Shown here piece after piece: positions 5,409 to 17,143 of a stretch of 64,000 nucleotides of DNA. The stretch's first letter is position 1, and every line of letters starts with the position of its first letter. Made by a program: the position numbers and the translations under genes. This DNA comes from Thalassomonas sp. RHCl1 (GTDB lineage: Bacteria; Pseudomonadota; Gammaproteobacteria; Enterobacterales; Alteromonadaceae). The DNA lies in the NCBI RefSeq assembly GCF_947387555.1, contig NZ_CANDNZ010000005.1, forward strand, positions 248,001 through 312,000, given 5' to 3'. Under the pieces are notes generated by a model that was given only the letters and a program-made list of their open reading frames with translations, made no database searches and had not been told where the DNA came from.

Positions 5409-5768
5409 TTAATGGGCATGACCATGGTCTGATTTAAAATTCGCAGGCTCAGCCACTTCCATCACTTGTCCCTGCTTGCTAATGGTAAAATACAGGGTCT
5501 GATGGGACTCGGTATTGACCCCTTTGATAATGTAAACGTCGCCGCTTTGTTCAAGTAAGGTAAAATTCTCTTTTGTAACCTTATTCCATGACTTATCTAT
5601 TTTGCCAACAGCCATACCGTGATCTTTAAAGGTCAGCATTTTGGCCGAGGTTTGCGCAATGGTAACCGCTTTGTCTGCGCTTACCTGACCATGTCCGCCG
5701 GTATGGGCAAAGACAGAGCCTGAAATGGAAATTGTAGCGATGAGTATTAACTTTAATAACATTTTCAC
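5409..5768 (-). CDS. DUF6488-family periplasmic protein, last gene of RND operon
   Basis: The 119-residue protein begins with a signal peptide (MKMLLKLILIATISISGSVFA) and has a His-rich start (HTGGHG) and end (KSDHGHAH). The mature body (SADKAVTIAQTSAKMLTFKD, SWNKVTKENFTLLE, LYFTISKQGQVMEVAEP) matches what I recall of DUF6488. That family is repeatedly found beside CzcA/HupE clusters in marine bacteria. The His ends suggest metal binding in the periplasm, possibly as a chaperone or buffer for the pump; that role is inferred. It lies 45 bp after the anchor gene on the same strand. Confidence 0.75.
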   Translation of the reverse strand: MKMLLKLILIATISISGSVFAHTGGHGQVSADKAVTIAQTSAKMLTFKDHGMAVGKIDKSWNKVTKENFTLLEQSGDVYIIKGVNTESHQTLYFTISKQGQVMEVAEPANFKSDHGHAH

Positions 5769-5813: not shown

Positions 5814-6341
5814 TTATTTCAGCCCTTCAATGACATAATCGCCATCGAAAAGCAGTTGAATTTGCATGTCTTTTGAAGAAGTGTTTTTCCAGTACCAGCC
5901 ATGGGAGCCGTCAAAGGGTGCGGTAAAACTGCCCTTCATTTCAGGCAAAGTAGCAATGGCATAACTTTCAAAGTATCCGCTGGTATCCCCGGCGGGTTCA
6001 CCGTGAAGGTCGACATAAACCTCACCGCCGTCAGTCAGCCATTCATAATTCACCTTCTTGAACTGCTTCACCGACAATTTGTACTCTATGCCCTTACCCG
6101 CAGGTACAGTCAACACCACAGAGTTTTGTTCACCCGGGGCCTTTTCACTTGAACCTTGCGCGCCGGTATTGGCAGCAGCCTGGTTATCATTAAAAACCGT
6201 CAGGCCAAGCTGCTTGCCGACACCGGTCGGGTCCAGGTTGTATTCTGCGGGTAAAATAAAGAATACAAGGGCAAGTATGGCGGTGCTAAAGGCGATAACT
6301 GACGCTTTAATAAGGGAGCGGCTTTCTTGATTTGATTCCAT
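5814..6341 (-). CDS. Single-span 'transmembrane anchor protein' of the metal operon
   Basis: This 175-residue protein has one N-terminal membrane span (residues about 12-30, SVIAFSTAILALVFFILPAE), then the conserved YNLDPTGVGKQLGL, a low-complexity Ala/Gly/Ser linker, and a periplasmic beta-rich domain (YKLSVKQFKKVNYEWLTDGG, VYVDLHGEP, GSHGWYWKN). Proteins with this PAEYxxDPTGxGxxLGL signature are annotated as transmembrane anchor proteins next to CzcA-like pumps. No function is proven. It lies between hupE and the DUF6488 gene in the same operon. Confidence 0.75.
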   Translation of the reverse strand: MESNQESRSLIKASVIAFSTAILALVFFILPAEYNLDPTGVGKQLGLTVFNDNQAAANTGAQGSSEKAPGEQNSVVLTVPAGKGIEYKLSVKQFKKVNYEWLTDGGEVYVDLHGEPAGDTSGYFESYAIATLPEMKGSFTAPFDGSHGWYWKNTSSKDMQIQLLFDGDYVIEGLK

Positions 6342-6407: not shown

Positions 6408-7106
6408 TTAGTTAATGAAGTATCCGGTTAACTGCATACCGACCAGCATAAAGCCGGCGCTCATCAAGGCGGTGTTGGTGGTTTTGGCAAACCTGTTGAA
6501 GCTTTCGTGCTTGCGCCAGTAATTGATGGTCAACAAAATAAACAGCAACGCCATAAACTGCCCCAGTTCCACGCCAACGTTGAATGCCAGCAGGTTGGCC
6601 ACCAGGCCTTCCCCCGGCAGCTGAAATTCCTGAATCTTGGTTGCCAAACCAAATCCGTGGAATAAACCGAAAATAAGCACCGCCGCTTTGGGATTAGGTT
6701 GTTTGCCAAAAAAGTGTTTAAAGCCGCCTAAATTATCAAAGCCTTTATAAACCACCGACAAACCAATAATGGCATCTATCAGATAGGCATTAATCTGGAC
6801 ATTGGCGAGTACGCCGGTCATCAGGGTGACACTGTGGCCGATAGTGAACATACTGACATAAAGTAAAACGTCCCGACTGCGGTGAAGGAAAAATAATACC
6901 CCCACCAGGAAAAGCAGATGATCATATCCGGTCACCATATGTTTCGCGCCGATATACATGAAGGGAATGATCTGTACACCTGAGTTCGTTTCTAAAAAAT
7001 TACGGGTACTGCTATCCACCCCGTGGGCAAAGGCTTCTATTGAAGCCATTGCCATCAGCAGCATTAACGGATACAGCAAATAGCTGAGTTTAAATTTTAC
7101 TGACAT
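6408..7106 (-). CDS. HupE/UreJ-family membrane protein
   Basis: The 232-residue protein has a signal-like first segment ending at AFAHGVDS and about six membrane spans. Family motifs are present: GYDHLLFLVGVLFFL, FTIGHSVTL, FGLFHGFGLA and FNVGVELGQF, with the conserved His and Asp placed as in HupE/UreJ. The family is linked to nickel or cobalt handling. In this setting it probably assists the RND efflux system with metal movement across the inner membrane (inferred). Its ATG directly abuts the czcA stop (7106/7107), so translation is likely coupled. Confidence 0.85.
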   Translation of the reverse strand: MSVKFKLSYLLYPLMLLMAMASIEAFAHGVDSSTRNFLETNSGVQIIPFMYIGAKHMVTGYDHLLFLVGVLFFLHRSRDVLLYVSMFTIGHSVTLMTGVLANVQINAYLIDAIIGLSVVYKGFDNLGGFKHFFGKQPNPKAAVLIFGLFHGFGLATKIQEFQLPGEGLVANLLAFNVGVELGQFMALLFILLTINYWRKHESFNRFAKTTNTALMSAGFMLVGMQLTGYFIN

Positions 7107-10100
7107 TTATATTTGTCCTTGTGATTGAAGTGTTGATGTATTCAGGTGCTCCGCCTGCCGTGCTGCTTTACCATGAAGCAAACGGTACAGTGCCGGCAGC
7201 ACAAACAAAGTTAAAATAGTGGAAGAAATGACACCGCCGATCACCACAGTCGCTAACGGGCGTTGTACTTCAGAGCCAATGCCGGTGTTTATCGCCATAG
7301 GAATAAAGCCCAAAGAAGCTACCAGGGCGGTAGTCAGTACCGGCCTTAAGCGGGTCAGCGCTCCTTTGATAATGGCCTCATCCAAGCCTATCTTGTCTTT
7401 ACGCAGCTCGCGGATAAAGGACACCATTACCAGGCCGTTTAAGATGGCGATCCCCGACAGGGCAATAAAGCCAACGGCAGCAGATATAGAAAAAGGAATA
7501 TCCCTTAATATCAGGGCAAAAATGCCGCCGGTAAGGGCCAAAGGCACACCGGTGAAAATAATCATGGCATCCTTAAAGGATGACAGGGCAAGCAATAACA
7601 GGCCGATGATCAATAATAAAGTGACCGGCACAACTATGCTCAGGCGCTTCGATGCCGACTCTAGTTTTTGGTAGGTACCGCCGTATTCCACCCAATAACC
7701 GGACGGTAACAATACCTTATCATCGATAGCCGATTTAATGTCATTAACAAAACTGCCGAGATCCCGGCCGCGCACATTGGCGGTCACCACCACGCGGCGT
7801 TTGCCGTTTTCCCGGTTTACCTGGTTGGCACCGGCAATCAGCTCAATGCGGGCAACTTCCTGTAAGGGGACAAAGCCACCTGTGCTTAAATGGATCGGCA
7901 ACTGGTTAAGGTTTCGCACATCACTTCTTTGCTGCTCGGGCAGCCTGACAACAATGTCAAAGCGTCTGTCCCCCTGATAGAACTTGCCAACGGATTCACC
8001 GCCTAAGGCAATGGCTACCTGCTGCTGCAAGTCTGCTTTTGACAAGGCATAAGCCGCCAGTCGTTCATCTTTAGGGAGCAGGGTTAATATCGGCAAGCCC
8101 GTGGTTTGCTCTACCTGTACATCGGCAATACCGTCAACACCGACAATGGCCGATTCGATTTCTTTGCCAAGACCTGCCAGGGTATCAAAATCATCACCAA
8201 AAACCTTGATCGCCAGCTCGGCACGCACCCCGGCCAATAACTCGTTAAAGCGCATTTGAATGGGTTGCAAAAACTCATAGCGGTTACCCGGTACCGGGGT
8301 CACCAGGGCTTCAAGCTCGCGCACCAGCTCTGCCTTAAGTTTATCCGGGTCGGGCCACTCTTGCCGTGGTTTGATAATAATAAAATTATCGGCAACACTC
8401 GGCGGTACCGCATCGGTTGCCACGTCGGCGGTACCGACTTTGGCAAATACCCGTTCAACTTCAGGTAGCTGCTGGATACGGGCCTCCAGTGCTTTTTGCA
8501 TCTCAATGGACTGGCTTAACGAAGTGCCGGGTATGCGCAGCGCGTGCATAGCGATATCCCCCTCGTCAAGGTTAGGCACAAACTCACTGCCCATTTTAGT
8601 CGCCATAAAACCGGCGCTGGAGACCAGCATTACGGCAACGGCAATAATCAAGTAGCGTCCTTTAAGGGCAAAGATCAGTACCGGCTTATAAAATGCCTCG
8701 CACGCCTTCATGATGATATTCTCTTTTTCAAGGACAGGGCCTTTAAACATCAAGGCAATGGCGGCCGGGACAAAAGTAATCGACAGTATCATGGCGCTTA
8801 CCAGGGCGATCACCACAGTAATGGCCATAGGATGGAACATTTTTCCTTCTACCCCGGAAAGGGCGAAAATAGGCAGGTAAACCGCGGTGATAATAAAGAC
8901 CCCGAATAATGCCGGGCGTATCACTTCCCTGGTGGCGTCAAACACTAACGACAAGCGTTCATTTAGCGGCAACACCTTGCTCTTGTTGCTCTGGGATGCC
9001 TGGCTTAAACGGCGCATACAGTTTTCAACAATAATAATGGCGCCATCCACCAAAAGGCCAAAATCGAGTGCGCCTAAACTCATCAAGTTGGCACTGACCC
9101 CGGCTTGTACCATGCCGGTTACCGTCATCAACATGGCAAAGGGAATAACCGCCGCCGTTAATAATGCCGCCCTGAAGTTACCCAGTAACAGGAACAGGAT
9201 AACAATCACCAGGATCGCCCCTTCCGTCAGGTTGGTTTCCACGGTAGTTAAGGTTTTATTGACCAGTTTGGTCCTGTCATAAACGGCGGTGGCCACTATG
9301 CCTTGCGGCAGACTTTTATTAACTTCCTTAAGCCTTTCCCCGACATCCTTGGCCACCTTCTGGCTATTCTCACCGATAAGCATAAACACGGTACTCATCA
9401 CCACTTCCCGGCCATTTTGCGTGGCGGCGCCGGATCTCAGCTCTTTGCCTTCTTTCACCTCGGCAACATCTTTTACCTTTAAACCCAGTCCTGTTTTCGT
9501 GGCAATCGGCACATTGGCCAATTGCTCAAGATCGGCTAACTGCCCGGGCAAACGCACCAGCCACTGAGCGCCGTTTCGTTCGATAAAACCCGCTCCCCGG
9601 TTTTGGTTGTGCTCGCCGACGGCGCGGATCACATCCTGCTGGCTTAAGCCATGGGCGAGTAATTTTTCCGGTTTGATGGCAATAAGAATTTCTCTTTTGA
9701 AGCCGCCGATTGGATTGACTTCGACAACCCCTTCCACCTGCATCAGCTGGGGACGGATGATCCAGTCATGCACAGTACGCAGATCGGTAGGCGTGATCAA
9801 ACTGCCATCTTCATTGGTAGCGCCGGGCACGGAGTCGACGGTAAACATAAAGATCTCCCCCAAGCCGGTTGAAATTGGTCCCAGCTCAGGCTCTATACCT
9901 TTTGGCAGATCCGCTTTTGCCCCGTTGAGTTTTTCCCCCACCAGCTGGCGGGCAAAATAAACATCGGTGTCGTCGGTAAAAATGGCCACTACCTGAGACA
10001 AACCATAGCGGGACACAGAGCGGGTATTGACCAAACCAGGTACACCCGCCAATGCCGTTTCCAGCGGGAAAGTCACCCTTTGTTCAACTTCCAGCGGCGT

Positions 10101-10268
10101 ATAACCGGGCGCTTCGGTATTAATCACTACCTGGACATTGGTAATGTCAGGCACGGCATCAATAGGCAACTTGGTAAAATTCCAGGCCCCCAAAGCCGCA
10201 AGCGCCAGCACAAATATCAGGATAAGCTTACTGCGCTGTATCGAAAATTTTAAAATAGCTTCTAACAT
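7107..10268 (-). CDS. czcA: Heavy-metal RND efflux pump, CzcA type
   Basis: At 1053 residues this is the usual length of a heavy-metal RND (HME) transporter, with twelve spans and two large periplasmic loops. Membrane span 4 reads DFGLLVDGAIIIVEN. Asp402, Asp408 and Glu415 fall at the same numbers as the proton-relay residues of CzcA from Cupriavidus metallidurans. The DFG..VDGA form favours Zn2+, Co2+, Cd2+ or Ni2+ over the Cu/Ag CusA class. The N-terminus (MLEAILKFSIQRSKLILIFV) and the PIDAVPDITNVQV and GSEFVPNLDEGD segments are family-typical. It is the inner-membrane pump of the tripartite CzcCBA-like complex, 9 bp after czcB. Confidence 0.95.
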   Translation of the reverse strand: MLEAILKFSIQRSKLILIFVLALAALGAWNFTKLPIDAVPDITNVQVVINTEAPGYTPLEVEQRVTFPLETALAGVPGLVNTRSVSRYGLSQVVAIFTDDTDVYFARQLVGEKLNGAKADLPKGIEPELGPISTGLGEIFMFTVDSVPGATNEDGSLITPTDLRTVHDWIIRPQLMQVEGVVEVNPIGGFKREILIAIKPEKLLAHGLSQQDVIRAVGEHNQNRGAGFIERNGAQWLVRLPGQLADLEQLANVPIATKTGLGLKVKDVAEVKEGKELRSGAATQNGREVVMSTVFMLIGENSQKVAKDVGERLKEVNKSLPQGIVATAVYDRTKLVNKTLTTVETNLTEGAILVIVILFLLLGNFRAALLTAAVIPFAMLMTVTGMVQAGVSANLMSLGALDFGLLVDGAIIIVENCMRRLSQASQSNKSKVLPLNERLSLVFDATREVIRPALFGVFIITAVYLPIFALSGVEGKMFHPMAITVVIALVSAMILSITFVPAAIALMFKGPVLEKENIIMKACEAFYKPVLIFALKGRYLIIAVAVMLVSSAGFMATKMGSEFVPNLDEGDIAMHALRIPGTSLSQSIEMQKALEARIQQLPEVERVFAKVGTADVATDAVPPSVADNFIIIKPRQEWPDPDKLKAELVRELEALVTPVPGNRYEFLQPIQMRFNELLAGVRAELAIKVFGDDFDTLAGLGKEIESAIVGVDGIADVQVEQTTGLPILTLLPKDERLAAYALSKADLQQQVAIALGGESVGKFYQGDRRFDIVVRLPEQQRSDVRNLNQLPIHLSTGGFVPLQEVARIELIAGANQVNRENGKRRVVVTANVRGRDLGSFVNDIKSAIDDKVLLPSGYWVEYGGTYQKLESASKRLSIVVPVTLLLIIGLLLLALSSFKDAMIIFTGVPLALTGGIFALILRDIPFSISAAVGFIALSGIAILNGLVMVSFIRELRKDKIGLDEAIIKGALTRLRPVLTTALVASLGFIPMAINTGIGSEVQRPLATVVIGGVISSTILTLFVLPALYRLLHGKAARQAEHLNTSTLQSQGQI

Positions 10269-10277
10269 AGGGCTTCC

Positions 10278-11516
10278 TTAGTGATCGTGCGAGGCGCCCG
10301 ATTTGTCGATATCGGCTTTAATGAGATAACTGTTCTGGGCCACATACTCAGTACCTTGAGGCAAGCCCCCCAGTACTTCTACCCAGGGACCGGCTTCCCG
10401 GCCAAGTTCCAGCATTCTGACTTCGTATTGCTGCCCGACTTTGGCATACACTACGGTGAAATCCCGAAACGCCTGTAATCCGGTAGACTTAACCGCCAGC
10501 GGCACAGGGTAACTGGCCAGAGAAATCTCGGCGCTGACAAACTGGCCGACACTGAGTGCGCCGTTGGTATTATTCACTTCTGCCCTGAAAATTTTCGCCT
10601 GCTGGCGGTTAAGGGCGAACAAGGCATCAAACAATTGCGAGTTAATCACCTGCTCGCTGCCGGGAATGAAAATTTTGACCGGGGCGCCCAGCTTGACTTT
10701 GGCTTTATCCATAGGGAAAACGCCAAGCTCGGCAATCAGTTTACTGGTGTCTGTGATAGTCAATAAGGTTCTGCCATTAGCTTGTTCACCAACGGCAATA
10801 TTCTGCGCCGTGATCACACCACTCACAGGGGCGTAAACAGGGTAAGTTTGCAGGCTTTCATTGCTTTCTATGGTAAACAATACCTGGCCTTTTTTGACAT
10901 GCTGCCCTAATACCGCAGCGAGTTTTTTCACTTCTCCCGGGTAACGGGCGCTGACATCACGGGTCGCATTTGGGGCAAGTTTGAGTTCGCCGAACACTTT
11001 TAAGATTTCATTGAACATCTGGCTGCCGGCCGTTTCGGTTTTTATATTCATCACCTGCGCCATTTCATCGCTAATGGCGGTACGGCCTTCAAAGTTGTCA
11101 TAAGACCATGAATAGCTTTTACCTTTATGGCTGGCGCTTAAGGTAACAACAAAAGAATGAGGTTCATAGATTTCCATATCGCCGCGCAGGTAATCATTTT
11201 CAACAAAGAAATTAATATCGTCGATAACATCCCCCAACCGGGTTAATTTAACATTCACCTCAACGTCTTGTGCGGCAATTTTTTTACCGGCCTTTGTCGC
11301 GAAAATCCTGAACTCGGGAGGAACCCCGTCTTCAAAAATAGCCAGTTCGATGGCAAAATCACCATCACGTAACATACGGCCATTGTTTGGTCCTTTTTCC
11401 ACGGCTTCTTTTACCGCCTCAGGATTAAATTGGGCAAACACACCCTGGCTGCTCAGTGCGCCGCTCAAGGCTAATTGACCGATAAGCATAGCGCTCACTA
11501 TTGATTTAAGTTTCAT
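10278..11516 (-). CDS. czcB: RND efflux periplasmic adaptor subunit, CzcB-like
   Basis: The protein is 412 residues when started at the ATG at 11516, which gives a signal peptide (MKLKSIVSAMLIGQLALSGA). An upstream in-frame ATG at 11567 would overlap czcC and lacks a signal. Order: an N-terminal domain (residues about 35-150), a barrel-sandwich/lipoyl hairpin (RYPGEVKKLAAVLGQHVKKG, then VYAPVSGVITAQNIAVGEQ), a beta-barrel (AELGVFPMDKAKVKLGAPV) and a membrane-proximal domain. It links the RND pump to the outer-membrane channel. The tail ends SGASHDH, a possible metal-touching end. Confidence 0.9.
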   Translation of the reverse strand: MKLKSIVSAMLIGQLALSGALSSQGVFAQFNPEAVKEAVEKGPNNGRMLRDGDFAIELAIFEDGVPPEFRIFATKAGKKIAAQDVEVNVKLTRLGDVIDDINFFVENDYLRGDMEIYEPHSFVVTLSASHKGKSYSWSYDNFEGRTAISDEMAQVMNIKTETAGSQMFNEILKVFGELKLAPNATRDVSARYPGEVKKLAAVLGQHVKKGQVLFTIESNESLQTYPVYAPVSGVITAQNIAVGEQANGRTLLTITDTSKLIAELGVFPMDKAKVKLGAPVKIFIPGSEQVINSQLFDALFALNRQQAKIFRAEVNNTNGALSVGQFVSAEISLASYPVPLAVKSTGLQAFRDFTVVYAKVGQQYEVRMLELGREAGPWVEVLGGLPQGTEYVAQNSYLIKADIDKSGASHDH

Positions 11517-11547: not shown

Positions 11548-12822
11548 TTAGTGTGAAATGGATGCACCGGTTAAGCGCTCCAGTTCAATCTTATTTAAAT
11601 GAATATTGGTATAGGCGGTTATCAGTTCAGTCTGAGCCGCAAGCAACTCCTGCTGTACCGCGTACCAGTCTGTGTAGCTATAGCTGCCAGTGCGATAGGC
11701 CTGACCTGCTTTTACACTCGCCAGCTCCAAGGTGGGTATGGTTTCTGACCCCAGCCCCTGAATAACGTGCCGGTTGTGCTTAAGCTTATGAGTTAGCAAC
11801 AGCAAGCGGGTAGAGGTCTCCTGATACCAGGCATCCGCTTGTGCCTGTTGTTCATTCTGCTGTGCCTGCAATGCCAATATTTTTCCCTGATTGCGGTTTT
11901 CACTGCCAAAAGGAATCGAGATACCGGCGGTAAAGGCAAAGTCATCAAGCTGCTCATTGCGTTTAAACCCTGTATTGATTTTCCAGGCAGGTTTTTCTGT
12001 CGCTTTGGCCAGGCTGATCTCTGATTGTGCAAGACGCTGCCTGGCAGCAAAAGCTTTTAATCTCGGATGGTTTTTGAGTTTTTTATCAGCAGCATTTAGC
12101 GCTTCAATTGAAGGGATATCTTGCAAGCTGCCGTTAATTTGAATATTTGCATCCCCCTGCCATTGCGCGACTAAGCGGGCCCGGCTCGCTTTGATCTCAT
12201 GATTAAGATCTTCCACCACCAAAGCTTTTTGCGAAAGCGCTGCTTTTGCCCGCAGCTGATCAACAAGATTTGATTTTCCCGCCTTCACCCTGACGGTGAT
12301 ATTCTCCAGCACTTTTTTCGCTTGCGCCTCGGCCAGTTTAGCCAGTTTTAATTGCTCTTTTTGAGCAAGTAACGTGATAAAGATACCAGCAGTTTCAGCG
12401 GCTAAATCCAAGGCTTCCCCCTGACGGGCAAGTTCACTGGTCTGTGCTTGTTCACCTGCCACCTTTACCCGCGATTTTATGATTTCATCTTCAAGCAACC
12501 AGGAAATACTCAGCGTGGTTTGCATTGCCGACAAGCCGGAATAATTACCGGTTCCGATCACATCTTCAACATCCAGGTTAATATTCATAGGGGTCGAGAT
12601 ACCCGCTTGCTGCACCATGCCCTTTACCGCCTCGCTCTGATAGGCATATTTTTTTAACTGCGGATGCTGAGCCAGCGTAAGCCTGATGGCATCATTAAGG
12701 GATAGACTTGTTTGCGCAAAAGCACCGGATGAGACAGCAACTAACCCCAACAGGACCAGTTTCATCTTGGCTTTAAACCGATTGCTAGTCGGTTTTTTTC
12801 TTATGTAGCTACGAATGGGCAT
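11548..12822 (-). CDS. czcC: TolC-family outer membrane efflux protein, CzcC-like
   Basis: The 424-residue protein is the outer-membrane factor of the efflux complex. It has long Ala/Gln/Lys/Leu-rich helices in two repeats and the typical start SLSLNDAIRLTLAQHPQLKK. The ATG at 12822 follows GGAAGAGG and gives a long basic n-region before a signal peptide (MKLVLLGLVAVSSGAFA). A second in-frame ATG at 12765 starts right at the signal peptide but has a weak ribosome site. The choice matters because a BlaI-type dyad lies at 12775-12795, inside the 5' end or in the leader. It is the first gene of the six-gene operon. Confidence 0.9.
   Translation of the reverse strand: MPIRSYIRKKPTSNRFKAKMKLVLLGLVAVSSGAFAQTSLSLNDAIRLTLAQHPQLKKYAYQSEAVKGMVQQAGISTPMNINLDVEDVIGTGNYSGLSAMQTTLSISWLLEDEIIKSRVKVAGEQAQTSELARQGEALDLAAETAGIFITLLAQKEQLKLAKLAEAQAKKVLENITVRVKAGKSNLVDQLRAKAALSQKALVVEDLNHEIKASRARLVAQWQGDANIQINGSLQDIPSIEALNAADKKLKNHPRLKAFAARQRLAQSEISLAKATEKPAWKINTGFKRNEQLDDFAFTAGISIPFGSENRNQGKILALQAQQNEQQAQADAWYQETSTRLLLLTHKLKHNRHVIQGLGSETIPTLELASVKAGQAYRTGSYSYTDWYAVQQELLAAQTELITAYTNIHLNKIELERLTGASISH
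12775..12795. promoter_or_regulatory. BlaI-type operator copy D (within czcC 5' end)
   Basis: This is a 21-bp dyad with half-sites AAACCGATTG (top strand) and AAACCGACTA (bottom strand) around a central C. It matches the arms found at the other three copies (consensus AAACC, G/T, A, pyrimidine, pyrimidine, G) with the same spacing. It is centred 88 bp from copy C. Confidence 0.68.
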
Positions 12823-12862
12823 AGCACCTCTTCCTTAGATCAAATTAAGGGATAATATTGTA

Positions 12863-12883
12863 AATCCGATCGCCGATCGGTTT
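12863..12883. promoter_or_regulatory. BlaI-type operator copy C (upstream of czcC)
   Basis: This 21-bp dyad has half-sites AATCCGATCG (top) and AAACCGATCG (bottom) around a central C, ending 41 bp before the czcC start. It overlaps where the operon promoter should lie (AT-rich TACAATATTAT on the minus strand just downstream). The T-run after it makes it look like a terminator, but the arms match the dyads in front of the blaI-like gene. Confidence 0.75.
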
Positions 12884-12943
12884 TTCGGTTAAAAATAAAC
12901 AGCCGCCGGCTGTTATGGTTTACCTGAATTCAGGCTATATCTA

Positions 12944-13909
12944 TTAGTGGCTAAAGATTGTTTCCATCAGGTGGTGAACGCTGTCAATGGCAGATAAACT
13001 GGCAGCAATAATAAGCACAATAAATATCAGGGTTAGCAGCTTATTTACCGGCTTTAACTCCAGCTGGCCAAGCAGAAAAAATACCCGCTGCTCTAAGACA
13101 TCGGCGCCAAAATTGGCTACCAGCTCATTATTCACCAGCGGCGCTTCGGCAGCATTTAACCGGGCGACTTTGACCAAAGTCGCCGCTACCATAGTCGATG
13201 AAATATTCTCCTCACTTAAAACCGCGTTATCTGCCGCCTGCTCCATGGCCAGTGTCATATGAAGTTTTAACCTCGCCGTCAGTGAGGGAAGAAAAAATGT
13301 CGCCAAAATACTGAACAGCCATTTTTTTAACGGATCATTACGTTTGGCATGGGCTTTTTCATGTCCCAAAATAACCGCCTGCTCCTGCACTGTTGTCGCT
13401 TTAAGCATGCCAGAGGTGATATAACAATGTTTAGTCAAAAAGCCACTGGTAAAGGCGCAGGCTTGCGGCAGCTCCAACTCATATACCTGGTGCCCTATTT
13501 TCCTGGCAAAGCCGGATAAAAGCGACAATTCATTTTTATGCTTTAGCAAAAGACTGACTTTGCGGATCAGCACATAAGCAATCCCGAGTAAGGCCAAAAG
13601 CAAGGTAATGCTGTGCCAGCTAAAAACAGCATAGACATCCATATGATGCCAGTGGGCATAAGCCGTGCTCCAGCTAAAAGGATCCAGGCTACTGAATTTA
13701 TATAAAAAATAACCAGAAACCAGCACAGCCACGCACCAGGGAATCACCACCAGTAACCATAAAATGTTTTTGCGCGGCTCAACCTCCATACCAAGAAATC
13801 GCTGGTCTAAAACAGAAATAATCAGGGATACGGCAAGATTGGCAATAAAAAAAGTGATCACTGCAATAGCAAGTGTATTGAGCCAAATAGCCAATGCCCC
13901 CTCAATCAT
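12944..13909 (-). CDS. M56-family (BlaR1-like) membrane metalloprotease without sensor domain
   Basis: The 321-residue protein has about four membrane segments (residues about 8-32, 48-68, 92-112 and a C-terminal one at 290-310). The M56 zinc motif HEKAH is at 183-187, in the context VILGHEKAHAKRNDPLKKW, with the downstream EQAADNAV supplying the third ligand. BlaR1/MecR1 proteins are about 600 residues and end in a penicillin-binding sensor; that domain is absent here. The first ATG overlaps the stop of the repressor gene (TAATG), so translation is coupled. It is inferred to cleave or inactivate the BlaI-like repressor on a signal sensed in the membrane or periplasm, probably metal given the neighbouring pump. 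Confidence 0.87.
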   Translation of the reverse strand: MIEGALAIWLNTLAIAVITFFIANLAVSLIISVLDQRFLGMEVEPRKNILWLLVVIPWCVAVLVSGYFLYKFSSLDPFSWSTAYAHWHHMDVYAVFSWHSITLLLALLGIAYVLIRKVSLLLKHKNELSLLSGFARKIGHQVYELELPQACAFTSGFLTKHCYITSGMLKATTVQEQAVILGHEKAHAKRNDPLKKWLFSILATFFLPSLTARLKLHMTLAMEQAADNAVLSEENISSTMVAATLVKVARLNAAEAPLVNNELVANFGADVLEQRVFFLLGQLELKPVNKLLTLIFIVLIIAASLSAIDSVHHLMETIFSH

Positions 13910-14295
13910 TACTTACTTTCCTGCCCTAGCTTAAGACGTTGCTGTTCAATCAGGCTCTCTAATTTAAGCAGCTGCTCTTCGTTAAACTCTTTTGAAATGG
14001 AAGAAAAGGCAGCCACTAAGCTACTGTCGTCTTCGGTAATGAAATCACTGGTCACCGACTTGATTAACTGGCCGATAAGTTCATGTCTTTCTACTTTCGC
14101 CTGATAGACAAATGCATGCCCCTCTTTATGGCGCGTTAATAAATCTTTTTTATACAAGCGATCCAGGGTACTTTGAATGGTATTTAAACTACCGCCACGC
14201 GTTTTTTCAAAATGGCCAAAGACCTGCTTCACGTCGGCAGAGTCGTTTTGCCAAAGGTATTGCAGCACCAGTTTTTCCAGCTCACCAAGTTTCAT
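13909..14295 (-). CDS. BlaI/MecI/CopY-family transcriptional repressor
   Basis: This protein is about 128 residues from the ATG at 14295, preceded by AAGAGGTA. The winged helix (MKLGELEKLVLQYLWQNDSA, then the VKQVF helix, and NTIQSTLDRLYKKDLLTRHK with wing GHAFVYQA) matches BlaI, and a C-terminal helix supports dimerisation. A longer frame runs up to 14415, but it would read through the two operators and has no ribosome site. Two 21-bp dyads lie in its promoter, one of them covering a TTGACA -35, so it should repress itself. The same dyad occurs twice at the czc operon, making this the likely regulator of the efflux genes. Confidence 0.9.
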   Translation of the reverse strand: MKLGELEKLVLQYLWQNDSADVKQVFGHFEKTRGGSLNTIQSTLDRLYKKDLLTRHKEGHAFVYQAKVERHELIGQLIKSVTSDFITEDDSSLVAAFSSISKEFNEEQLLKLESLIEQQRLKLGQESK

Positions 14296-14337
14296 GAAGT
14301 TACCTCTTTTGTCATAAAATTTTGCCAGAGTAAATAA

Positions 14338-14358
14338 AAACCGACCGACAATAGGTTT
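14338..14358. promoter_or_regulatory. BlaI-type operator copy A
   Basis: This 21-bp dyad has half-sites AAACCGACCG (top) and AAACCTATTG (bottom) around a central A. It lies between the inferred -10 and the repressor start codon, centred 36 bp from copy B. Confidence 0.8.
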
Positions 14359-14372
14359 ATTGTTTACCATAT

Positions 14373-14395
14373 AAAACCGACTGTCAATAGGTTTT
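14373..14395. promoter_or_regulatory. BlaI-type operator copy B over the blaI-like promoter
   Basis: This dyad has half-sites AAACCGACTG (top) and AAACCTATTG (bottom), extended by further A/T symmetry outside (ATAAAACC and GGTTTTAT). On the minus strand it contains TTGACA (14387-14382). A weak AACAAT -10 lies 17 bp downstream, so repressor binding would block the -35. Confidence 0.82.
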
Positions 14396-14940: not shown

Positions 14941-15648
14941 ATGAAAAAGATAATGAAATTTATTATTTTGGTTTTATCTTTTAACCTTTGGGTAAATCTT
15001 GCCTGGGCTTGTGGTCATCCGCCACCACCACCACCGGTACCTGATCCTCCTCCTCCTGAAGTCTGGATGATAGACCATGGCATCGACCCGACCACAGGAA
15101 TGAGCAATATGTGGTTTGGGGTTGAGATTGACCCGGAACTCTTTCCCATCACCGAACCCACAGTGTGCACCTGTGGCATAGGTCTTGGCGGAGCAAACCT
15201 GCCTTTTGTTCCTTCTCTTAATGTTACCAGCGCCATGCTTGCGGTAACCAATATGATGACACATGAAGTCGAACGTGTGGATGGCTTTGACTTTGAACCC
15301 GACTCCGCCATAGCCGGCAACTCAGCCGGCAATGCCCTGATACCGGGCCAGCAGTGGAACGGCTTTTCAGCGCTGGTGACAAATTTTGTCCAGCCAATAT
15401 TAGAGGATAACGAAGTATTAAAGCTTTGGTTTAACCTTGAAATTGATCCCGATGACATCGAAACCTTACATGAAGCCACCGACGGTCAGCTGCTGGGCTT
15501 TAGCATAGGCGGCTCTCCAGACGATCCGGAGCACCAGCCCCAGCAATTTATTGGCCACAAAACTTCAGTGCCAGAGCCCGCCTCTGCGCTCCTGTTGGCC
15601 ATGGGACTTGTGTTATTTGTTGCAGGCCGGAAAAAGCGGCTCAGCTAA
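14941..15648 (+). CDS. PEP-CTERM sorting-domain protein with Pro-rich N-terminus
   Basis: This 235-residue exported protein has a signal peptide (ending at VNLAWA), then CGH and two runs of prolines (residues about 27-39). It ends in a PEP-CTERM signal: VPEP at 210-213, a hydrophobic stretch (ALLLAMGLVLFVAG) and the basic end RKKRLS. Such proteins are processed by an exosortase at the inner membrane and released to the surface or exopolysaccharide. The central 160 residues are acidic (theoretical Ca-binding or matrix type) with no known domain. No exosortase gene lies in the window. A hairpin terminator follows at 15666. Confidence 0.87.
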   Translation: MKKIMKFIILVLSFNLWVNLAWACGHPPPPPPVPDPPPPEVWMIDHGIDPTTGMSNMWFGVEIDPELFPITEPTVCTCGIGLGGANLPFVPSLNVTSAMLAVTNMMTHEVERVDGFDFEPDSAIAGNSAGNALIPGQQWNGFSALVTNFVQPILEDNEVLKLWFNLEIDPDDIETLHEATDGQLLGFSIGGSPDDPEHQPQQFIGHKTSVPEPASALLLAMGLVLFVAGRKKRLS

Positions 15649-15739: not shown

Positions 15740-17143
15740 ATGACAAACAAATGTAACTTTAGCCGCTATGAAAGTAACTTACGGTTAGCAGTATTAAAAA
15801 AATGTCTGCTGATCTCTCTTGTCATCTTAGCATTATTGCTCCTGGCCATGTTTAAAGCTTCGGCAACCGTTATAGAAGTTTTGCCAAAACTGGAGCAGAT
15901 GATCGAGAACCAGCAATTGCCTCAAGACAATAACAACCAGCTACAGTTGGGGGCTGTAACTGCTCTGATGGTAGATAAACAATATCAGGAAGCAATAACA
16001 CTTTTACAGCAACACCAAAAGCAATATCCCGCCAACAAAAGCGTGTGTTACCTGCTGGCTTTATCCTACGTGGGCCAGGAAAATTGGCAAAAGGCCGACT
16101 TGGCAAGCCAGGAGTGCATAAAAATAGATAACAGATGGCCGGTCATATATAGCTTAAGAGGCCCGATACTCTCGGCCCTCGGCAAAAAGAAACAAGCCCT
16201 GCAACAGTATAATTTTGTTATCGCCCTAACACCTGATGAACCCGGCAGCTATCTGCAAAGAGCCAAATTCCTTTATGCAAACCGAAAAAATGACAAACAA
16301 GCCCTGAATAAAGCAACAAAAGATATCGCTAAATACCTCCAGCTTAACGGTGATGCCAGCAATAGTTATGGCTTGCAAGGCCTGGTTCATTTGGCTTTAA
16401 ACCAACCCCGCCAGGCAAAACCCTATTTACTTAAAACAATAAAAGCTCAGCCCGGAAACCTGACGATACTCGCCGAACTCTTACCCCTTTATTATCAGGA
16501 AGGCAAAACAAACCAGGCAAAGGAGTTACTCCTTAGCAGTAGTAAATCCTTCAATAAACTGGATAAGAAAAAAAGCAGCCTGTTCCAATATTTACAGGCA
16601 AAACACGCCATAGCTACCAAAGAAAAAAACAAGGTGGAAGGTTATTTTCAGGCTGCACTTAAGCTCAAGCCGGATAATTTGGCGGCGCGCAAAGCACTTA
16701 TCTACTGGCTCGACAAACAGGAAAGATTGCCCGAAACTATTCCCCTGGCGAAAAAAGGCCTAGTTTTTTCACCCAAAGACAGTTATTTCACCTCCTACTT
16801 AGCCTGGGCCCTGACAGATGAAGGCACAGATTTAGCTCAGGCACAAAGTTGGATAGACAAAGCCAAAGCCTTAACACCTGGTAACGTGTTTCTCAGCGAT
16901 ACCCAGGCCTGGCTGGATGTACAACAAGGCAATTACCAGCAGGCACTAAAACACATTCAACCCAGCATCAGTTACGCACCGCAGGTGCCTGAAATTGCCT
17001 ATCACCTCGGGGTGATCCACTATAACCTTGGGTCAAAAAATAAAGCCATCGAGTATTTGCAGCTGGCCCTGAAATTACCCGAGTCATTTAACGGCAGAAC
17101 CCAGGCCAAAGCCCTGTTAAATAACTTAACGAGCAGCAGTTAA
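15740..17143 (+). CDS. Tetratricopeptide-repeat protein, membrane-anchored or exported
   Basis: The 467-residue protein has one N-terminal hydrophobic segment (residues about 23-41, LLISLVILALLLLAMF) followed by about nine TPR-like helical pairs from residue 50 to 465. Clear TPR signatures include QEAITLLQQHQKQYPAN, ALGKKKQALQQYNFVIALTP, AHLALNQPRQAKPYL-type and LGSKNKAIEYLQLALKLP. TPR arrays act as protein-binding scaffolds. Its place 90 bp after a PEP-CTERM gene suggests a role in envelope or exopolysaccharide assembly, as PrsT-like TPR proteins do, but it has no lipobox and is shorter than PrsT. A terminator separates it from the upstream gene, so it has its own promoter. Confidence 0.8.
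   Translation: MTNKCNFSRYESNLRLAVLKKCLLISLVILALLLLAMFKASATVIEVLPKLEQMIENQQLPQDNNNQLQLGAVTALMVDKQYQEAITLLQQHQKQYPANKSVCYLLALSYVGQENWQKADLASQECIKIDNRWPVIYSLRGPILSALGKKKQALQQYNFVIALTPDEPGSYLQRAKFLYANRKNDKQALNKATKDIAKYLQLNGDASNSYGLQGLVHLALNQPRQAKPYLLKTIKAQPGNLTILAELLPLYYQEGKTNQAKELLLSSSKSFNKLDKKKSSLFQYLQAKHAIATKEKNKVEGYFQAALKLKPDNLAARKALIYWLDKQERLPETIPLAKKGLVFSPKDSYFTSYLAWALTDEGTDLAQAQSWIDKAKALTPGNVFLSDTQAWLDVQQGNYQQALKHIQPSISYAPQVPEIAYHLGVIHYNLGSKNKAIEYLQLALKLPESFNGRTQAKALLNNLTSSS

Follow-up and report, generated by a model that had tools for sequence, protein, structure and literature searches.

The window, a 64,000-nucleotide stretch of Thalassomonas sp. RHCl1 (GCF_947387555.1, NZ_CANDNZ010000005.1, positions 248,001-312,000 of the forward strand; genome 7.56 Mb), carries on its minus strand a gene for a BlaI-family repressor, a gene for an M56 membrane metalloprotease and a run of genes for a heavy-metal efflux (HME) system of the resistance-nodulation-division (RND) type. 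The repressor, a 128-residue winged-helix protein (PF03965), is encoded at 13909..14295 from an ATG at 14295, and the 321-residue protease at 12944..13909. Next come genes for a czcC-like outer-membrane factor with a Pfam OEP domain (11548..12822), a czcB-like periplasmic adaptor (10278..11516), a czcA-like heavy-metal RND transporter (7107..10268), a HupE/UreJ_2 membrane protein assigned by Pfam (6408..7106), a protein without a Pfam family, here called p175, in which we see by eye one N-terminal membrane anchor and a periplasmic part (5814..6341), and a Pfam DUF6488 protein (5409..5768). Four 21-bp dyads lie in this region. We consider it probable, at about 0.72, that the locus is a proteolytic switch of the BlaI/BlaR1 type, refitted for metal, that controls CzcCBA-HupE-p175-DUF6488.

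Dyads 1 (14374..14394, AAACCGACTG-T-CAATAGGTTT) and 2 (14338..14358, AAACCGACCG-A-CAATAGGTTT) lie in the blaI promoter, dyad 2 standing 36 bp from dyad 1. Dyad 3 (12863..12883, AATCCGATCG-C-CGATCGGTTT) lies in the gap that separates the M56 gene from czcC, and dyad 4 (12775..12795, AAACCGATTG-C-TAGTCGGTTT) is within czcC. A preliminary description of this DNA had reported four 21-bp dyads with a common arm and eight half-sites that vary by at most one change, and we found both statements to be correct, with 8 of 8 half-sites fitting AAACC[GT]A[CT][CT]G at that tolerance. Three of its positions (12775, 12863 and 14338) were exact, while the one given as 14373 was one base off, its dyad ending at 14394 instead of 14395; two dyads are indeed present at czcC, but the one at 12775 is intragenic and only that at 12863 lies between genes. 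The description had also taken such dyads to be what BlaI repressors bind. Here the sequence disagreed, as the operator known for BlaI, MecI and CopY, RNYKACANNTGTMRNY, fits none of the four dyads within 2 mismatches, and the 75 window matches to the operator core (TACANNTGTA / RNYKACANNTGTMRNY) at up to 2 mismatches include none that overlaps them.

We scanned the whole host genome with the dyad consensus AAACCKAYYGNCRRTMGGTTT, using the reversed pattern as a control. At 0-1 mismatch only the four window dyads were found; 2 further sites had 2 mismatches and 12 had 3, giving 18 places in total, compared with 12 for the reversed pattern at up to 3 mismatches. In a first-order Markov simulation with the composition of the window (20 runs), the mean number of sites per 7.56 Mb was 0.0 both at 0 and at 1 mismatch, 0.55 at 2 and 7.8 at 3. 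The preliminary description had named a matrix that matches random sites as often as promoters as the outcome that would count against it, and in the host genome neither the scan nor the simulation showed this.

BlaI orthologs were called at E <= 1e-18 in every genome set: 22 of 394 genomes of the order, 9 of 369 of the class (the window's own included) and 8 of 398 of the phylum, of which 3 had already been found earlier, leaving 5 new loci that had no part in the earlier analysis. In a scan of the order set, 26 genomes had the dyad at <=1 mismatch: 20 of the 22 with a BlaI ortholog versus 6 of the 372 without one (Fisher p 2.5e-26). Both ortholog genomes that were missed (G306 and G336) have weaker sites, at 2-3 mismatches, and the reversed pattern matched in 5 of the 394. 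Over 34 BlaI loci (the window and 33 others), counting at <=3 mismatches, a dyad was present in the blaI promoter in 29 and just 3' of the M56 gene in 23; M56 itself was matched by tblastn in 31. The czcC-side sites were located by DNA pattern, yet where czcC was identified independently, 18 of 19 loci carry one behind M56. The blaI-side dyad was present in all five new phylum-level loci (four exact, one with 1 mismatch). Two of the five had a downstream dyad, at 2 and 3 mismatches, in each case within the first codons of a frame at the czcC position; the frame of L161 matches CzcC and that of L159 was placed by position alone.

As a paralog control we examined 26 other BlaI loci (92,266 bases; 25 distinct places, L024 being L089), and none had a dyad at <=3 mismatches, which rules out that BlaI loci in general carry the dyads. 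The second PF03965 match in the host genome likewise has no dyad and lies beside an M56 protein with a long tail, TonB-like by eye. An origin as chance palindromes is ruled out by the scan of the host genome, the simulated expectation and the contrast among the 394 genomes. Together, the co-occurrence in those 394 genomes, the 5 of 5 new loci and the 0 of 26 paralog loci support the proposed link between BlaI, the dyads and the metal-pump operon.

The best-scoring of 5 sigma-70-type promoter matches in the region (shuffles average 3.7), TTGACA-17-AACAAT (14359..14387, minus strand; 10/12), is a pattern match only; it overlaps dyad 1, within which the -35-like hexamer TTGACA lies on the minus strand. 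In 24 of 26 loci the blaI-side dyad contributes such a hexamer, of TTG type. Two loci of the window's genus (L084 and L085) and a near-duplicate (L100) were left out of the promoter and pairing tests, a choice made post hoc.

At czcC, a Shine-Dalgarno-like aaggaagagg indicates a start at 12822 (ATG), and dyad 4 therefore falls within codons 10-16, which encode KPTSNRF. Across 20 tabulated loci the dyad nearest czcC is in frame in signal-peptide codons and encodes K-P-[IT]-x-x-R-F or nearly so. This table retains L084, L085 and L100 and, in loci with two such sites, counts the one closer to czcC; of the 23 loci that have a dyad downstream, it excludes three (L087, L104 and L111), whose dyad lies outside a czcC-like frame. 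The Pro codon was CCG in 20/20 and the Arg codon CGG in 18/20, although among synonyms in these loci the two account for 26% and 13%. Because CCG and CGG are nearly fixed, it is the DNA, and not the peptide alone, that is conserved at this site; with the occurrence of the same palindrome in non-coding blaI promoters, this rules out the dyads as a by-product of a conserved peptide KPxxxRF. In species with a single downstream dyad within a czcC-like frame, the M56 stop codon precedes the start of the dyad by 39-46 bp, which leaves little space for a separate czcC promoter. We infer a single, self-regulated operon whose second operator, inside a gene, could serve as a roadblock. In the window's genus an intergenic downstream site is added.

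The repressor matched PF03965 (Penicillinase_R) at 82.3 bits against a cut-off of 22.6, and the solved penicillinase repressor 1p6r at E 6.7e-9. Its Phe97 falls opposite Phe102, the scissile residue of Staphylococcus aureus BlaI, and this Phe is conserved in 31 of the 34 BlaI rows. Cleavage of BlaI at Asn101-Phe102, and self-cleavage of BlaR1 at Ser283-Phe284, are described in PMC9834060. A profile built from 30 M56 proteins matched BlaR1 (8exp) at E 8.8e-7 across the membrane and protease region, with F267 of the window protein printed against the autocleavage residue Phe284. The catalytic residues H183, E184 and H187 (motif HEKAH, 183-187) and E223 were invariant in 31 of 31 rows. In all 37 M56 proteins of the window type, 130-143 residues follow HExxH, and the window protein ends after its last predicted membrane helix with no other Pfam domain, so that the preliminary description was right to say that a penicillin sensor is lacking. 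By comparison, the 25 paralog frames with HExxH have 228 or more residues after the motif.

Two short segments of the window M56 protein stand out. The loop between helices 2 and 3, equivalent to the extracellular loop EL1 of BlaR1, contains H86-W-H-H and S97-W-H99, and the C-terminal tail after the last helix contains D309..H312-H313..E316....H321. Both are predicted to face the periplasm by analogy to BlaR1, whose N and C termini lie outside and whose EL1 (residues 56-96, helices 2-3) is extracellular and has long been regarded as a signalling loop (PMC9834060). At least 3 His/Cys were present in the loop of 37/37 M56 proteins, and a tail motif H-[HNQYR]-x-x-E in 36/37, with HH in 30. Over all 31 M56 rows, H86 was conserved in 28, H88 in 28, H89 in 29, H312 in 30 and E316 in 31; a core of 19 rows was also defined, from which 12 of the 31 (11 distant members and the near-duplicate L100) were excluded post hoc. 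The distant members have a loop of the form DHCxxH..HxHxC..H. Among paralog frames the tail motif was found in 1 of 26 (one gene, L024/L089, being counted twice).

In the mechanism that we propose, a BlaI-family dimer would bind the 21-bp AAACC[GT]AYYG dyads, covering the -35 element of the blaI promoter and the leader and first codons of czcC, and from there would repress its own gene, the M56 gene and CzcCBA-HupE-p175-DUF6488. Divalent metal building up in the periplasm would bind His (or Cys/His) and acidic residues of the M56 loop and tail and alter the membrane bundle, upon which the cytoplasm-facing HExxH site would cut BlaI near Phe97, the dyads would be vacated and the pump would be made. 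From the sequences compared here, we are confident in the putative operator and regulon, regard cleavage of BlaI by M56 as quite likely, and lean towards direct binding of metal by the loop and tail. That BlaI occupies the dyads, that it is cleaved and that metal is the signal are steps that we infer; the outward loop and C-terminal tail are a concrete candidate for the metal site. We slightly favor the view that this is a sensor class absent from the papers searched, in which the outward loop and tail of a protease form a composite metal site and metal in the periplasm controls whether a cytoplasmic repressor is cut, and, jointly with it, that there are two ligand sets, a His-only set (HWHH...SWH) and a Cys/His-rich set (DHCxxH..HxHxC..H) beside other HME-RND or HupE clusters.

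A number of observations weigh against this mechanism. The Pfam M56 score of the protease, which is of M56/M48 type, was 30, just below the cut-off of 31, and an AlphaFold model of M56 alone (per-residue confidence, pLDDT, 51; predicted template-modelling score, pTM, 0.23) was too poor to place the His residues together or apart and was not used. Three paralog frames also have at least 3 His/Cys in a loosely placed loop (L032 and L050 with 5, L033 with 3), which argues against the loop as the sole mark. The scissile Phe is absent in L105-L107, and L056 and L109 have no M56 match. Neither CzcA nor HupE was matched in 6 of the 34 loci (L056, L108, L109, L111, L113 and L114); of these, L114 has DUF6488 behind M56, and the stretch of L108 ends within 140 bases. 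Loci L113 and L114, from one genome, with BlaI 41% identical and M56 present, have a dyad at neither position. The blaI-side dyad is missing from L087, L104, L111, L113 and L114, and the downstream dyad from L056, L096, L103, L105-L109 and L113-L115, some of which are cut by contig ends. Two supporting counts carry their own limits. An xAxxxT hexamer lies 16-18 bp beyond the -35-like hexamer in 22 of 26 loci, compared with 2-14 of 26 when the spacing is centred on 15 or on 19-44, but this count was selected after inspection, and the mean TATAAT match was flat across spacers, so that a 17-bp spacer was not singled out. Similarly, blaI-side and downstream sites of the same locus resembled each other more than those of different loci did (17 loci, permutation p 0.0014), a comparison confounded by phylogeny.

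Some dyads also occur away from any such operon, which counts on the same side. Among the six dyad-positive genomes without an ortholog, the dyad adjoins HupE only in G234, where it sits between a probable M56 remnant (a weak match, E 0.007) and DUF6488-HupE-p175. In G103, G200 and G397 it falls within unrelated genes, and in the sister genomes G143 and G157 exact dyads stand at the 5' end of the same unrelated transporter-like gene. Extra dyads in two BlaI-positive genomes (G231:C2 and G230:C13) are intergenic, beside genes unlike those of the operon.

Two of these places deserve a description of their own. The G143 and G157 dyads (L146, 9083-9103; L147, 1142-1162) reflect either chance or another user of the motif. 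The G234 region (L149, 8387-10823), in a genome with no BlaI ortholog at E <= 1e-18, is either a switch in decay or an artefact of the draft assembly. Dyads were also present at G230:C13, at G231:C2 and on the viral contigs L142-L144, none of which had a tblastn match to the eight operon proteins.

We weighed four other explanations. In the first, BlaI and the dyads control the pump, but M56 senses envelope damage or cell-wall fragments, metal being one cause of damage. M56 is homologous to BlaR1 and spans the membrane, and the studied M56 proteins BlaR1 and MecR1 are described as sensing beta-lactams (PMC9834060, PMC7593790). Set against this, the protease has no sensor domain, its outward-facing parts are short, with conservation concentrated on His, Trp, Asp and Glu, or on His and Cys, and a CzcA-type RND and/or HupE match was present in 28 of the 34 loci, with some CzcA at just 33-34% identity. 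We think this explanation unlikely. The CzcA-like RND is a presumptive heavy-metal cation exporter by family membership (TIGR00914, CusA/CzcA family, 1441.7 bits, cut-off 701.45), and the same family was assigned to 4 of 4 RNDs tested (the window, L107, L112 and L116).

Alternatively, the operon partners p175, HupE and DUF6488 might sense metal and then act on M56. In orthologous loci p175 travels with HupE, and both stay with BlaI-M56 where CzcCBA is missing from the stretch (L087, L096, L103 and L104). However, L105-L107, L110, L112, L115 and L116 have BlaI and an RND with no HupE or p175 match in the stretch, and we consider sensing by the partners quite improbable. In the phylum-level loci, HupE and CzcA were both matched in 4 of 5, the fifth being cut by a contig end. 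A 102-103-residue protein precedes HupE in four of these five (L158, 4444-4755; L159, 8891-9199; L160, 4447-4758; L161, 10299-10610), directly in three and one gene off in L159. A Shewanella HupE/UreJ protein is called nickel-transferring in PMC10142276, with Albareda 2015 as the reference given there.

It would also be conceivable that BlaI itself senses metal in the manner of CopY, with M56 as an accessory. CopY is a metal-sensing relative of BlaI, and the top NCBIfam match of the window BlaI was TIGR02698 (CopY_TcrY), at 48.1 bits, below the cut-off of 121.95. Residue 60 is His in the wing motif K-x-G-H-A in 28 of 34 rows, where 1p6r has Arg (KEGR); this His60 may be linked to the unusual AAACC operator. 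CopY senses copper through a cysteine site, and that site is absent here: the window BlaI has 0 cysteines, and thus is not a CopY, and no more than 1 was found in any of the 34 rows. In addition, an M56 protein with conserved ligand-type residues stands beside BlaI, and we give metal sensing by BlaI little credence. That another regulator binds the dyads, with BlaI/M56 a mere neighbor, would suit a dyad unlike the known BlaI/MecI/CopY operator but is very improbable, since the dyads track BlaI orthologs across families and lie in the blaI promoter, and we noticed no other regulator common to the loci, although no systematic search was made.

The proposed metal-responsive BlaI-M56 switch can be set beside known systems. 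The textbook example of a signal relayed by destroying a repressor is that of BlaR1 and MecR1, with a beta-lactam as the input. As in BlaR1-BlaI and MecR1-MecI of S. aureus, a BlaI-family repressor adjoins an M56 membrane gluzincin (HExxH...E), Phe is conserved at the repressor and self-cleavage positions, and operators lie at the pair's own promoter and at the target. Unlike those pairs, there is no penicillin-binding sensor and the loop and tail carry His/Cys instead, the operator is different, the target is a metal RND operon and the hosts are a Gram-negative group. The pair would work like BlaR1-BlaI and belongs to the same protease and repressor families, but it lacks both the penicillin sensor and the known operator, which are defining for that system. 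CopY/CopR of Gram-positive bacteria resemble it in being BlaI-family repressors of a metal export operon. There, copper is sensed by CopY itself, which binds RNYKACANNTGTMRNY (PMC7253601), whereas the window repressor has no Cys, is assigned a different operator and is paired with a protease. Paralogous BlaI/M56 pairs within the order likewise combine a BlaI-family repressor with M56, but their long regions after HExxH are TonB-, ankyrin- or peptidase-like by eye, just 1 of 26 frames has the tail motif, and the AAACC dyad is absent from their loci.

HME-RND pumps are controlled by CzcRS, CnrYXH and MerR-type regulators; in those systems, as would be the case here, metal induces the pump. Unlike in them, no gene for a kinase/response regulator, anti-sigma factor or MerR lies between blaI and DUF6488, and here destruction of a repressor would regulate the pump. 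There are other M56 proteins without a penicillin-binding domain, and we know of no defined signal for them; for one such sensor-less group, the locus supplies a defined operator and regulon together with a candidate sensing site. If the mechanism holds, it would be a recurrent further route to heavy-metal RND pumps in Proteobacteria, beside two-component, extracytoplasmic function (ECF) sigma and MerR control, and one in which the first pump gene carries a second operator within its signal-peptide codons. No report of BlaI/M56 control of an HME-RND pump was found in the titles and abstract openings of the matches listed, a scope outside which subscription papers and preprints fall. A 'blaR1' annotation beside metal-resistance genes appears in Shewanella (PMC11253441). 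Such annotations might be explained by this switch and may be misread as beta-lactam resistance, the Shewanella case being a candidate only.

Three further observations concern relatives and neighbors of the pair. In L056 (1471-1951), from an Algicola sp. metagenome-assembled genome, a BlaI 81% identical to that of the window has two promoter dyads and no M56 match behind it. In L032 (G005), an M56-like frame without HExxH but with a loop EHCHVSVCGPH stands beside a BlaI-like gene and is possibly a non-proteolytic relative of the sensor. Finally, in the window itself, a secreted protein at 14941-15648 adjoins a repeat-rich protein of 467 residues (15740-17143) and ends in a VPEP...GRKKR tail, which resembles a PEP-CTERM sorting signal.

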